From Myxococcus stipitatus (GTDB taxonomy: Bacteria > Myxococcota > Myxococcia > Myxococcales > Myxococcaceae): a stretch of DNA of 64,000 nucleotides. The stretch covers positions 1,116,001-1,180,000 of the forward strand of contig NZ_JAKCFI010000001.1 in NCBI RefSeq assembly GCF_021412625.1, given 5' to 3'. Of the stretch, positions 38,007 to 46,121 are shown piece after piece. The first letter of the stretch is position 1; each line of letters begins with the position of its first letter. Made by a program: the position numbers and the translations under genes. The notes below the pieces were generated by a model, which did not search any database, had not been told where the DNA came from, and saw nothing but the letters and a program-made list of their open reading frames with translations.

Positions 38007-39452
38007 TCACGACTCGTGCGCCGCGTGGATGGGCGGTCGGCGCACGGACCAGGGGCGCGCCTGCTCGAGCTGTCCCGCCAGTCGGAACAGGGTGGCCTCG
38101 TCCGCGTAGCGCCCCACGAACTGGACGCCGATGGGCAGCCCCTCCTCGTTCCAGTGGAGGGGGACGTTCATCGCCGGCTGGCCCGTGACGTTGTAGAGCA
38201 CCGTGAAGGGGTTGAGCGTGAAGACGTGGCGGTACCACTCGGCGGCCGTCCGGGGGGCGTTGGCGTCGAGCACCCCCAGCTTGGGCGGAGGGATGGCCGT
38301 CGTCGGCGACAGCAGCACGTCGTAGTCCTGGAAGAAGGCGCCCACCGCGCGCGAAACCGTGTTGAAGGTGGCGGAGGCAAGCTGGAGGTCCGACGCCTTC
38401 AGCCCCCGGCCGTATTGGACCGCGGCCCAGGTGCTCGCCTCCAGCGTCTCCGGCCCCGCCTGCCGGCCCGTCTGGGCGCCGAGCGCCCCCGCCCACAGCG
38501 CCATGAACGAGGACCAGACGGACGTCAACGCGTCGAGCATCGCGGCGTCATCGTAGACGGGCGCGGCCTCGATGAGGTCGTGGCCGAGCGAGGCGCACAG
38601 CCGCGCCGCGTCCTCCAGCGCCGTCAGACAGTCCTTGTCGACCGGCGCGCCAGAGCCCGGCGCGCGGCACAGCGCGATGCGCAGCCGCCTGGGCTCCCGG
38701 AGCACCTCCTCCACGTAGGGGCGCTCGGGCGGCGGCGCGTAGTAGGGGTCGCCCACCGCGGGACCCTGCGACGCGTCGAGCATGGCCGCGCTGTCCCTCA
38801 CGGAGCGCGACAGCACGTGCTCCACGGCGATGCCCTGGATGGCCTCGCCCATGTCGGGCCCCACCGAGACGCGCCCCCGCGTCGGCTTCAGGCCGAACAA
38901 GGCGCAGTGCGCGGCGGGGATGCGGATGGAACCTCCGCCGTCGTTGCCATGGGCCATGGGAACGATGCCCGCGGCCACCGCGGCCGCGGTGCCTCCGCTG
39001 GAGCCGCCCGTGCTGCGGCTGGGGTCCCAGGGGTTGAGCGTGGGGCCGTGGAGCACCGGCTCCGTGCTGGTGTTGTTGCCGAACTCGGGCGTGTTCGTCC
39101 GGCCCAGCGTGACGAGCCCCGCGCGCCGGTAATGGGCCATCAGCGTCGTGTCGTGCGGGAACACCAGCCCCTGGGCCAGTCGGCTGCCCAGGTCCGTGGG
39201 GACGTTCGCCGCGTGCAGGGCCAGGTCCTTGATGAGGAAGGGCACCCCCTTGAAGGGGCCCTCCACCAGGCCCGCTTGGAGTGTCTGGCGCGCGTCGGCC
39301 TCGCGCACCTCGATGACCGCGTTGAGCTTCGGATTGACCCGGGCCACCGCTTCCAGCGCGGTGTCCAACAGCTCCGCGGGCGACACCTCGCCCCGACGAA
39401 CCAGCTCGGACAACCCCAGCGCGTCGTACCGCGTGTACTCGTCAAGATGCAT
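38007..39452 (-). CDS. Amidase-signature enzyme
   Basis: This 481-residue hydrolase has the full Ser-cisSer-Lys triad of the amidase family: Lys75 in FLIKDL, Ser151 in TGGSSGG and Ser175 in GGGSIRIPA. It should hydrolyse a carboxamide, amide or ester bond in the cytoplasm. It resembles stand-alone amidases rather than GatA, since no gatB or gatC is near. It is convergent with the thioesterase gene and probably monocistronic. Confidence 0.9.
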   Translation of the reverse strand: MHLDEYTRYDALGLSELVRRGEVSPAELLDTALEAVARVNPKLNAVIEVREADARQTLQAGLVEGPFKGVPFLIKDLALHAANVPTDLGSRLAQGLVFPHDTTLMAHYRRAGLVTLGRTNTPEFGNNTSTEPVLHGPTLNPWDPSRSTGGSSGGTAAAVAAGIVPMAHGNDGGGSIRIPAAHCALFGLKPTRGRVSVGPDMGEAIQGIAVEHVLSRSVRDSAAMLDASQGPAVGDPYYAPPPERPYVEEVLREPRRLRIALCRAPGSGAPVDKDCLTALEDAARLCASLGHDLIEAAPVYDDAAMLDALTSVWSSFMALWAGALGAQTGRQAGPETLEASTWAAVQYGRGLKASDLQLASATFNTVSRAVGAFFQDYDVLLSPTTAIPPPKLGVLDANAPRTAAEWYRHVFTLNPFTVLYNVTGQPAMNVPLHWNEEGLPIGVQFVGRYADEATLFRLAGQLEQARPWSVRRPPIHAAHES

Positions 39453-42239: not shown

Positions 42240-42455
42240 TCAGAGGCACACCTTCGGCGGACAGGGCGTGCAGATCACGGTGGTCTGCCCCGGCTGGCAA
42301 CAGCCGCCGGTGATGCTCTCCAGGACGTCGTCGTCCAGCTCCAACTCGGAGGCGGGGTTGGCCGGCAGCGCGGCGCGCTCCTCGGCGGTGAGGCTCTCGT
42401 AGTACGCGGGGTCGCTCCATGCGCGGCGGATGTGGTCCTTCTTCGACTGGCTCAT
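42240..42455 (-). CDS. Class II lanthipeptide precursor 1 (LanA1)
   Basis: This 71-residue peptide has an acidic, mersacidin/lichenicidin-type leader (residues 1-51) with LTAEERAALPANP and a double glycine at 50-51, and a 20-residue core with three Thr and five Cys. The core ends in ICTPCPPKVCL; Thr7, Thr8 and Thr12 with Cys11, Cys14 and Cys19 of the core are shared in position with precursor 2. Cys1 and Cys2 have no upstream Ser or Thr and may form a disulfide. GAGGAA precedes the ATG at 42455. It should be modified by the LanM encoded upstream and cut by the C39 transporter. Confidence 0.85.
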   Translation of the reverse strand: MSQSKKDHIRRAWSDPAYYESLTAEERAALPANPASELELDDDVLESITGGCCQPGQTTVICTPCPPKVCL

Positions 42456-42499
42456 ATGGATTCCTCGTTGGAGTGAATGAGAGGCGTGAAGAGGTGGGA

Positions 42500-42715
42500 C
42501 TAGACGCAGTGGTACGGCGGGCACGGCGTGCAGATGGCGGAGCTCTCGGCGGAGGGGCTGTTGCCGCCGCCGATGCTCTCCAGCATGTCGGCGCCCAACT
42601 CGACCTCGTGCGCCGGGCTGGGTGGCAGCGCGGCGCGCTCCTCGGCCGTGAGGCCGGCGAAGTACGCGGGGTCACGCCACGCGCGGAGGATGTGGTCCTT
42701 CTTCGATTGGCTCAT
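42500..42715 (-). CDS. Class II lanthipeptide precursor 2 (LanA2)
   Basis: This 71-residue peptide has a leader nearly identical to precursor 1 (same MSQSKKDHI start and LTAEERAALP block) ending in three glycines at 49-51. The 20-residue core NSPSAESSAICTPCPPYHCV has Ser2, Ser4, Ser7, Ser8 and Thr12 with Cys11, Cys14 and Cys19. AGGAG five bases before the ATG at 42715 fixes the start. It lies 44 bp upstream of precursor 1 and 85 bp after lanM. The two peptides may be a two-component pair or duplicated variants. Confidence 0.85.
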   Translation of the reverse strand: MSQSKKDHILRAWRDPAYFAGLTAEERAALPPSPAHEVELGADMLESIGGGNSPSAESSAICTPCPPYHCV

Positions 42716-42800: not shown

Positions 42801-45800
42801 TCAGCGCCTGCCGCGTGGCGGCGGTGGCGCGACGGCCAGCAAGGACGGAAGCGAATCCGGGAGCGCGAGCCGGGCGAGCTGGTAGGCCATGCCCGCCAGC
42901 CCCACCATCAGCCCCGGGGTCTCCGCGTTGCCTTGCAGGCCGTGCAACGGCCCATGCTCCTGGAGCCCCCTCAGGATTCCTCCCGCCACCCTCCGCGCGC
43001 GCTGCTCCAGCGAGGCGTCGCCCAGCGCGCGCGCCGCCTCCAGCAGGAAGTCCACGTTGCCCAGGTCGCCATGGCAGAGGCTGTGGTTGCGTCCGAAGCC
43101 GCGCGCCAGCGTCGAGTCGATGGCCACGGCAATCTCGTCGCGCACCCGCGCGTCGTCCAACAGCGGCAGTCCCCTCACGCGCGCGAGCCCGACGCCCGGC
43201 GCGCCGGTGCACCAGGCCCACATGAAGTGCTCCCCATCGCCTCCCAGCTCGACCGGGCGCGCGCGCAGGTCCGGCCAGTTCCGTTCGCGAGCCGAGTACA
43301 GCGCCCGCTCGTACTCCAGGGCGCGCAGGGCCAGCTCGCGGGGGCGCGGGTCTCCCACCGCCGCCGCCAGCTGGAGCAACGCCAGCGCGGTGCCCGCCAC
43401 GCCGTGCGCGAAGCCCACCAGGTACTGGTTCCCCGCAGCTTCGGAGAGCCAGGCCACGCCCTGCTCCCGTGGGTGGGCGGTGGCCGCGAGCCGGTCGCCG
43501 CAGGCTTGCATCAGCTGTCGCAGCGAGGCGGAGGGGCGATGCGCCTCGAGCCCCAGGAACGCGAGCAGGCAGCCCGCGGAGCCCGCGCCGACGTCCAGGA
43601 CGGTGTCCTCCGCCACGAGGGGGGCGAGCCGCGCCGTGTAGGCCACCGCCTGGTCGAGCAGCGCGTCGTCACCCCAGAGCACGCCCAGGTGCGTGAGCGC
43701 GTAGAGGATTCCTCCCCAGCCGTTGAGGATGCCGAGCCCCCGCGTCCCGCGAGGGTTCTCCTCGCACACGTTCACCAGGGCCACGACGGCGCGACGCGCG
43801 ACGCGTGTGAAGGCCGCGTCACCCGTGGCCTCGCCCAGATAGCCCAGCGACAGGGCGATGCCCGCGAGCCCCTGGAAGACGTCCGTGCCCGGCTGGGCGA
43901 GCTGCCAGCCTCCCTCGCCCGCGAACAGCGAGAGCCACCGCGCCTCGTCGCGGCCCTCGAACGCGAGCGTCAGCAAGCGCCGGCCCACGCCCCGGGCCGC
44001 CTCGAGGAGGGCCTCCCGGCTCGCGGGGAGGGAGGTCTCCTGGAAGGCGTAGCTGGGGCGGTCCGCCACCGTCGAGCCGAGCCAGAGCACGTCGAGGGAG
44101 CGCTCCAGCACCCAGCGCTGGCGCGCGTGGTCGTCCTCGCTCAGCCCCTCCACGCGTCGCCTGACGCGCTCCAGGCCCGACTCCGCGAAGAAGCCGGGCA
44201 GCCGCTCTCCCTGACAGGACTCCAGGTCGCGCGAGCCGGGCCGCGCGCTGAAGTAGGGGATGTCCGCCCGCTCCAGGGCTCGCTGCTCCAGCGGGACGAG
44301 CAGCTCCAGGTCGGGCACCGTCACCACGCTCCGCCAGAGCTGGTCGAGGAAGCGCTGGCGCTCCGCCGCGTCGGCGAGCACATGGGGATGGAAGCTCTCG
44401 AAGTAGAGGGTCCCGTAGACGGCCGTGTTGCGGAACAACACGCGCATGGGCACGTCCGCGAAGGCGGCCAGGGGGCCCTCTGGCGCGAGCAGCTGGGCGC
44501 GGTGGGCGCGCAAGAGCGCGTACATGCGGGAGAAGCCCTCGGCGAGCGCGTCGCGGTGCTCCAGCACGGCGACGTCCGCGCCCTGGAGGGTCGGCAGGTT
44601 CTGCGTCCGCGCCATCTCCACGGGCTGGCGCTCGTAGCGCATCTGGTCCGTGCCCCGCCCGGCGGACACGAGGAAGGCCTGGGACGTCTTCTGTCCGGGA
44701 CGCGCCCCCAGGCCGCTCAAGTCGATGCCACCTCCCTCGCGGGTGCTCCAGAACCGCTGGGGCAGCAGTCCGCTGCGAAGCACCGAAAGGAACGCCACGC
44801 CCTGGTCATGCTCCGCGGCCCGCGGCCTGCGCGTGCCCGACAGCGGATGGAAGAGCGTCTCCAGGTCCACGAGGAAGGGGTGCTCGCCCGCGGCGATGAT
44901 GTTCTCGCAGTGGCAGTCCGTGGCGTCGAGCACGTGCAGGAGCGCCACGTACGCGCCCTGCCGCGCGTAGAAGCGGCGCACCTCTTCCGACGTGGCGCAC
45001 GGCGCGGCGTCCACATGCTCCATCCAGCCGTAGTCGCCCCGGTCCCAGACGCGCACCGTCGCGAGCGAGGGGGTGGCGCCGCGCGCGTTCACCCACGTCA
45101 ACAAGCGCTGGAAGACCGACTCGGGCCCCAGGGAGCGGGGCTTGTAGACGAGCCGCGCGCCGGACGCGAAGCGCAGCACGCACACGCCACGCCCTCCCCG
45201 GTGTGGGTCGGAGAGCCCGCCTCGCGCCTCCACCAGCAGCCCCGGGTCCCCATCGCCATGGATGCGCTCGCGCAGCCCGGCGGCGTCCTCGGCCAGCCGC
45301 CGCATCAGCTCCAGCGACGCGTCCTCCCATTGCGCGACGCGCTCCACCGCCGAGCGGGCCAGGACGGGATAGCGCTCCAGGATGTCGAGCGCGACGGCGC
45401 GCTGGCGCAGCGAGTGTTCGAAGGTCTCGAAGCGGGCCTCGGGCGTCCCTCCCGCGAGGGGGCCGTCCAACTGCGCGGCGTGCAGCTCCACCACGAGCGC
45501 GCGACCGAGCACCGGGGCCAGCCGCAGGGGGAGGTGGCCGAGCAGCAGCGTCGCCGCCTCCGGCGTGAATGGCGCCTCGGGGAATCGCGCCTTCAGCGCC
45601 GTCAGCCCCGCGCGCAACCGCGCATGGGCCCGCCGCACCAGCGGCTCCACCAGCGACAGGAAGGGCACGCGCGGCGTACCCGGTTCAGGGGGCGGCCAGT
45701 CGACGGGCTCCGCCACGGGCCGCGCATACGCCTCCTCCACCTCCGTCGCCCAGGCCGGGGTGGGAGCCTCGACGCCCGCGGGCGGGTCGCCCAGCAGCCC

Positions 45801-46055
45801 GAGCAGCCCGGCCTCGTCGAGCCCCAGCTCTTTCAGCCGCCGCGCCCACCAGTCGCCATGTCCGAAGGGCTCCTGTCGACGCCACGTCTCGAGCCGCCGC
45901 CTCGCTCCCGCGTCCACGGGGCCGGGCGCCGGAGGCCCCTCCAGCGTCGCGAGCCGCTCGCGCAAGGTCGCGGCCTTCCACCAGGAGCGCCGATGGGGCG
46001 CGACGCACCCCGCCGCCGACGCTGTTGCCACGGCCTGTGTCGACGCTGAGACCAT
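42801..46055 (-). CDS. Class II lanthipeptide synthetase LanM
   Basis: This 1084-residue bifunctional enzyme has an N-terminal dehydratase (DUF4135; LVYKPRSLGPE near 300, DATDCHCENIIAAGEHPFLVDLETLF near 390) and a C-terminal LanC-like cyclase with the zinc site WCTGAPGVGLAR and CHGDLGN (Cys, Cys-His). It should dehydrate Ser/Thr in the two precursor cores and join them to Cys as lanthionine or methyllanthionine. The ATG at 46055 with GAGAGG four bases upstream is preferred over 46067. It is the first gene of the lan operon; a TTGACA box lies 90 bp upstream. Confidence 0.92.
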   Translation of the reverse strand: MVSASTQAVATASAAGCVAPHRRSWWKAATLRERLATLEGPPAPGPVDAGARRRLETWRRQEPFGHGDWWARRLKELGLDEAGLLGLLGDPPAGVEAPTPAWATEVEEAYARPVAEPVDWPPPEPGTPRVPFLSLVEPLVRRAHARLRAGLTALKARFPEAPFTPEAATLLLGHLPLRLAPVLGRALVVELHAAQLDGPLAGGTPEARFETFEHSLRQRAVALDILERYPVLARSAVERVAQWEDASLELMRRLAEDAAGLRERIHGDGDPGLLVEARGGLSDPHRGGRGVCVLRFASGARLVYKPRSLGPESVFQRLLTWVNARGATPSLATVRVWDRGDYGWMEHVDAAPCATSEEVRRFYARQGAYVALLHVLDATDCHCENIIAAGEHPFLVDLETLFHPLSGTRRPRAAEHDQGVAFLSVLRSGLLPQRFWSTREGGGIDLSGLGARPGQKTSQAFLVSAGRGTDQMRYERQPVEMARTQNLPTLQGADVAVLEHRDALAEGFSRMYALLRAHRAQLLAPEGPLAAFADVPMRVLFRNTAVYGTLYFESFHPHVLADAAERQRFLDQLWRSVVTVPDLELLVPLEQRALERADIPYFSARPGSRDLESCQGERLPGFFAESGLERVRRRVEGLSEDDHARQRWVLERSLDVLWLGSTVADRPSYAFQETSLPASREALLEAARGVGRRLLTLAFEGRDEARWLSLFAGEGGWQLAQPGTDVFQGLAGIALSLGYLGEATGDAAFTRVARRAVVALVNVCEENPRGTRGLGILNGWGGILYALTHLGVLWGDDALLDQAVAYTARLAPLVAEDTVLDVGAGSAGCLLAFLGLEAHRPSASLRQLMQACGDRLAATAHPREQGVAWLSEAAGNQYLVGFAHGVAGTALALLQLAAAVGDPRPRELALRALEYERALYSARERNWPDLRARPVELGGDGEHFMWAWCTGAPGVGLARVRGLPLLDDARVRDEIAVAIDSTLARGFGRNHSLCHGDLGNVDFLLEAARALGDASLEQRARRVAGGILRGLQEHGPLHGLQGNAETPGLMVGLAGMAYQLARLALPDSLPSLLAVAPPPPRGRR

Positions 46056-46121
46056 GTTGCCTCTCATTCCAGACAGCCGGGTGAGGGGTTGCGATGGTGT
46101 GGCGAGGCTTTGGTGGATGAT

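Follow-up and report, generated by a model that had tools for sequence, protein, structure and literature searches.

A probable class II lanthipeptide locus of Myxococcus stipitatus with two likely constant ring donors in its precursor cores

Introduction

Two short open reading frames, LanA1 and LanA2, lie beside a LanM gene in the window analysed here, a stretch of 64,000 nucleotides from Myxococcus stipitatus. The original prediction, made from the letters alone, took them for lanthipeptide precursors whose cores share a three-ring scaffold built on Ser/Thr at positions 7, 8 and 12 and Cys at positions 11, 14 and 19. The question raised by this locus is which of these positions belong to a scaffold common to the peptide family, and which are particular to the two cores in the window.

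Clusters of this kind have already been reported. The lantibiotic cluster MXAN_2853-2857 of M. xanthus DK 1622 was published in 2014 and, in the accessible sections of that paper, consists like the window cluster of LanT, a hypothetical short ORF (MXAN_2854), two precursors and LanM (PMC3951391); in our literature search MXAN_2853 matched this paper only. The DK 1622 cluster is equated with the window type by gene order and by strain AM003, not by DK 1622 sequences. M. xanthus AM003 has two CTPCPP precursors, as in the window; AM003 includes a Gly-Ala type, which the window pair lacks. A Myxococcus fulvus cluster is class III rather than class II (PMC9576775). The searchable literature, outside which most subscription papers lie, yielded no class II lanthipeptide product of Myxococcus that has been characterised, and the string CTPCPP retrieved from it a single paper, on lamprey tooth proteins. 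The refined scaffold described below is the sole addition to this record.

Results

The window contains a probable class II lanthipeptide cluster

Both precursors carry leaders that match TIGR03898, the mersacidin/lichenicidin leader family, above its curated cut-off of 23.5 bits (precursor 1, E=1.3e-18, 66.7 bits; precursor 2, E=2.3e-14, 53.1 bits), which bears out their predicted identity as lanthipeptide precursors. As is expected of class II precursors, a Gly-Gly site is combined with an exporter containing a C39 peptidase, and a LanM with dehydratase and cyclase domains adjoins them (Table 1). This LanM scores 917.5 bits against TIGR03897 (E=7.7e-276; cut-off 304), contains PF13575 and PF05147, and keeps the DxHxEN, WC and CHG motifs when aligned to LicM2 (6st5). 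A scan of the whole 10.1-Mb genome recovered a single LanM above cut-off, and the sole C39 match at E<=1e-5 was the cluster's own exporter. Since the leader matches, the LanM and C39 exporter domains and these single genome-wide matches all concur, the lanthipeptide class can be regarded as fixed; leader, enzyme and exporter agree that the locus is very probably a class II lanthipeptide cluster.

Table 1. Features of the predicted lanthipeptide locus, in window coordinates
Feature	Position	Strand	Remarks
LanM, class II lanthipeptide synthetase	42801..46067	-	~1088 aa; DUF4135 dehydratase and LANC-like cyclase; start inferred
LanA2 (precursor 2), 71 aa	42500..42715	-	stop included; leader ends ...LESIGGG; core NSPSAESSAICTPCPPYHCV at 42503-42562
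LanA1 (precursor 1), 71 aa	42240..42455	-	stop included; leader ends ...LESITGG; core CCQPGQTTVICTPCPPKVCL at 42243-42302
Membrane-anchor ORF, 71 aa	41907..42122	-	HlyD-type adaptor likeness, N-terminus only
LanT, C39 peptidase-containing ABC exporter (PCAT)	39709..~41911	-	PF03412, PF00664, PF00005; GTG start inferred
Amidase, syntenic downstream neighbour	38007..39452	-	PF01425

The order LanM, precursors, 71-aa ORF, LanT, amidase is the usual one in Myxococcus. The amidase is the neighbour of LanT in the window and at 8 of the 10 other Myxococcus loci; of the two exceptions, one (L045) is interrupted by a contig end. The 71-aa ORF, whose stop is overlapped by the inferred start of LanT, directly precedes LanT in all ten readable Myxococcus loci (the window and nine others; the eleventh is again L045). 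Its likeness to HlyD-type adaptors is confined to their N-terminal membrane anchor, with no periplasmic part, and in relatives it has matches at the N-termini of full-length HlyD ORFs that lie near C39 exporters; it may serve as a mini adaptor for the exporter. No immunity gene was recognised among the scanned neighbouring ORFs, so an antibacterial action of the products is a guess.

The two cores are homologous

Both cores, CCQPGQTTVICTPCPPKVCL and NSPSAESSAICTPCPPYHCV, had been predicted correctly to the letter, with 20 residues after the Gly-Gly site. Their Ser/Thr residues at 7, 8 and 12 and Cys residues at 11, 14 and 19 are confirmed: core 1 reads T7, T8, C11, T12, C14 and C19 with additional C1 and C2, and core 2 reads S7, S8, C11, T12, C14 and C19 with additional S2 and S4, as proposed. 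These six shared positions, compared as Ser/Thr or Cys classes, were reached in 27 of 200,000 paired shuffles. The whole precursors are, however, paralogues with 65% identity, so the agreement of the cores reflects descent and not convergence, and the shuffle test is moot because the cores are homologous. Comparing precursor 1 with its counterpart in a relative (G065) gave, from too few codons for a decision, dN 0.198 and dS 0.485 for the core and dN 0.120 and dS 0.309 for the leader; the leader row for G004 and G007 was left out of this analysis, as their leaders are unaligned and of unequal length.

Relatives of the precursors

We searched 96 genomes of the family with the leader and obtained matches in 37 of them at E<=0.01, many with different cores. 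Twenty stretches were fetched, 13 around the closest matches and seven around a second locus, the latter representing part of its matches. A scan by leader only recovered 22 precursors from the 13 closest stretches, all 22 ending in CTPCPPxxCx, and seven precursors with other ends from the second-locus stretches. We also ran a profile over 195 genomes of the phylum, scoring up to 30 candidates per genome, and this added one genome (G111) from a family other than that of the window, with the core end GSALCSPCPPASCF. Including the window and G111, the collection holds 25 precursors from 15 genomes, with 19 distinct cores. The genomes are 11 of the 27 of the genus, three of other genera (G034, G004 and G007) and G111, and the cluster-bearing contigs include those of Myxococcus qinghaiensis, M. 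xanthus AM003, Myxococcus sp. CA023 and M. vastator.

Column counts were made with a DNA pattern in which C11, T/S12, P13, C14, P15, P16 and C19 are fixed and columns 1-10, 17, 18 and 20 are free; support for the fixed columns is therefore taken from the leader-only scan (22 of 22), which is free of that restriction. The final 20 residues were taken as the core. Past the double glycine, some precursors have 19 or 21 residues, so that in the 21-residue cores the first residue (Cys in one case) is uncounted, and in G034 one leader glycine is counted. All core counts refer to sequences, not to independent events.

A LanM tree was midpoint-rooted for drawing, and its G111 branch is long. In it, LanMs that belong to CTPCPP clusters of other genera lie outside the Myxococcus clade, and the second-locus LanMs group in a clade of their own next to the main one. 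Most of the precursor tree is unresolved, with 5 of its 21 inner branches starred. In G034, G004 and G007 a LanT homologue was not matched within the 16-kb stretch, and 5 to 7 C39 matches lie elsewhere in those genomes. G111 has no Gly-Gly before the core, whose start is accordingly not fixed by a leader site, and no C39 match in its genome, which is 92% complete; the match of a nearby exporter starts at LanT residue 189, past most of the peptidase domain.

A constant C-terminal module and a proposed mobile third donor

The alignment of the family separates a constant part, S/T8-x-x-C11-[T/S]12-P-C14-P-P-x-x-C19, from varying positions (1-7, 9, 10, 17, 18 and 20); the pattern of the last ten core residues is kept across myxobacteria. 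At position 8, 18 of the 19 distinct cores have Ser and one has Thr; position 12 is Thr in all 22 precursors of the leader-only scan and Ser in G111. Position 7 is Gly in seven cores, as in DSCEQFGSYYCTPCPPYVCM, Ser in six, Thr in four and Cys in two. As it is Ser/Thr in only 10 of 19 cores, position 7 lies outside any fixed scaffold. Thus the proposed common scaffold stands for positions 8, 11, 12, 14 and 19 and fails for position 7. Judged from the aligned cores, the constant module consists of donors 8 and 12 and the three C-terminal Cys, and the third donor changes its place.

No core has fewer than three Ser/Thr or fewer than three Cys, so three rings are possible in every member. Ser/Thr at position 2 is present in 9 of 9 cores that lack Ser/Thr at 7, against 1 of 10 cores that have it, an exchange that rests on few independent lineages. 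G111 apart, the Gly7 type makes up a single clade in the tree, and two related genomes supply the Cys7 type. In 14 of the 19 last-20 cores there are more Cys than Ser/Thr, and in these, therefore, thioethers alone cannot engage every Cys.

We put the probability that the window encodes class II lanthipeptides built on this module of two constant donors at about 80%, a figure that covers neither ring pairing nor activity.

Discussion

Alternative readings of the scaffold

The closest competitor to a two-donor module is the predicted scaffold itself, in which the rings would use exactly Ser/Thr 7, 8 and 12 and Cys 11, 14 and 19. Both window cores allow it, as do all cores with a Ser/Thr at position 7, three-Cys cores from other genera such as PTSAYCTPCPPKYCY among them. 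The seven cores with Gly and two with Cys at position 7, in all of which position 8 stays Ser/Thr, argue against it, so that it can hold for the window pair, not for the family; we regard it as possible but doubtful.

A second reading places a ring between positions 2 and 7 that may run in either direction, from Cys2 to Dha/Dhb7 in precursors of the PGQSS type and from Dha2 to Cys7 in those of the PEQCS type. The two types hold the same place after LanM, Cys2 accompanies Ser/Thr7 in 7 of 7 cores, and Cys7 accompanies Ser2 in 2 of 2. The exchange, however, is a single one in one lineage (G060 and G067), where Ser2/Cys7 stands against Cys2/Ser7 in the positional counterpart. In the window, core 2 combines Ser2 with Ser7 and has no N-terminal Cys, most Gly7 types carry Ser/Thr2-Cys3, and such a ring would leave just two donors for C11, C14 and C19. 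For these reasons we consider a 2-7 ring rather unlikely.

According to a third reading, the window peptides are an obligate two-component (alpha/beta) lantibiotic. Two precursors share one LanM and one LanT, the M. xanthus cluster too is described with two precursors in the part of the paper available (PMC3951391), and seven of the eight multi-precursor clusters combine a Gly-Gly type with a Gly-Ala type precursor, a pairing that suggests division of labour. The window is the exception, since its two closely similar precursors are both of the Gly-Gly type. Moreover, seven of the 15 clusters have a single precursor (six have two and two have three), so the peptides are not always encoded together, and an obligate synergy of two peptides is unlikely to be the general case; the idea of synergy between the two peptides is weakened to that extent. 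The mersacidin-like CTx(S/T)xEC motif is absent from every core, and the comparable two-precursor tla cluster was judged by its authors to encode congeners more likely than a pair (PMC13060208). We consider an obligate pair improbable, and the two window peptides are likelier to be congeners.

That the pattern stems from recent duplication alone, without structural constraint, accords with the window precursors being paralogues but is scarcely credible, as both other genera and G111, with a LanM of only 39% identity, keep the C-terminal module while other positions vary.

Proposed biosynthesis and rings

With the two-donor module as the preferred reading, biosynthesis may be envisaged as follows. 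The single LanM would dehydrate Ser/Thr of the core and add Cys thiols, and the cluster's C39 exporter would cleave after Gly-Gly and secrete products of about 20 residues. The constant donors 8 and 12 would each be joined by a thioether to one of C11, C14 and C19, and the remaining Cys would pair with the mobile donor, which may be residue 7 in some members and residue 2 in others, or alternatively form a disulfide where N-terminal Cys exist. A disulfide between the vicinal C1 and C2 of core 1, suggested in the original prediction, now appears a weak guess, as Cys occupies both positions in only 2 of the 19 last-20 cores. The assignment of methyllanthionine to one core and lanthionine to the other at positions 7 and 8, likewise part of that prediction, would be a conditional one.

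Ring pairing is not readable from sequence. Thermolanthin, as far as it is described in the portion of PMC13060208 available, comes from a cluster (tla) that has, like the window, two precursors, one LanM, one PCAT and a double Gly, and it shares with the window cores a Dhx-Dhx-Xxx-Xxx-Cys segment and a C-terminal Thr-Pro-Cys...Cys, its own rings overlapping. Its host is Thermoactinomyces and its core differs in length and sequence. In its SSLATPCKRC segment, the reported pairings are Ser2-Cys7 and Thr5-Cys10, rather than that of Thr with the Cys two residues on (PMC13060208); a further precedent for ring pairing is PMC11343131. The doubt raised earlier over a very small Thr12-Pro13-Cys14 ring was thus well founded. 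By analogy we would favour the pairing 7-11, 8-14 and 12-19 for the window cores, a weakly held preference; the constancy of position 8 would equally fit an 8-11 ring, and a 7-11 ring is not universal, because Gly7 members offer C11 no donor at 7.

The window leaders resemble those of the mersacidin/lichenicidin family, and the core motif is unlike theirs. In mersacidin-type lantibiotics the lipid II-binding motif is CTx(S/T)xEC. It occurs in 0 of 19 distinct cores, which on this count sets them apart from lipid II-binding lantibiotics of the mersacidin type. Most probably, the products are secreted and serve a predatory bacterium as antibacterials or signals. A bolder reading, which we hold to be unlikely, is that they form a distinct myxobacterial CTPCPPxxC family whose ring plan is so far undescribed, with a C-terminal pair of overlapping thioethers from 8 and 12 and with an N-terminal 2-7 bridge that evolution has reversed, joining Cys2 to dehydro-7 in one lineage and dehydro-2 to Cys7 in another, both forms being the work of orthologous LanMs. 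If true, the reversed bridge would provide a direct handle on how LanM picks ring direction.

The aligned family amounts to a natural mutational series, which singles out 8 and 12 as against 7 as the first residues to mutate, offers Gly7, Cys7, Ser7 and Thr7 as natural variants for comparison, and marks the N-terminus as the changeable part.

Two observations concern neighbouring material. The second LanM locus of Myxococcus (L046-L052) has a related leader and cores ending like CLYTNCGRIACCR or CLFTPCGTSHCCA, and one of its copies, L047, looks degenerate. The Myxococcus cluster also occurs on a public contig labelled Comamonas sp. KCTC 72670, a title that looks wrong.
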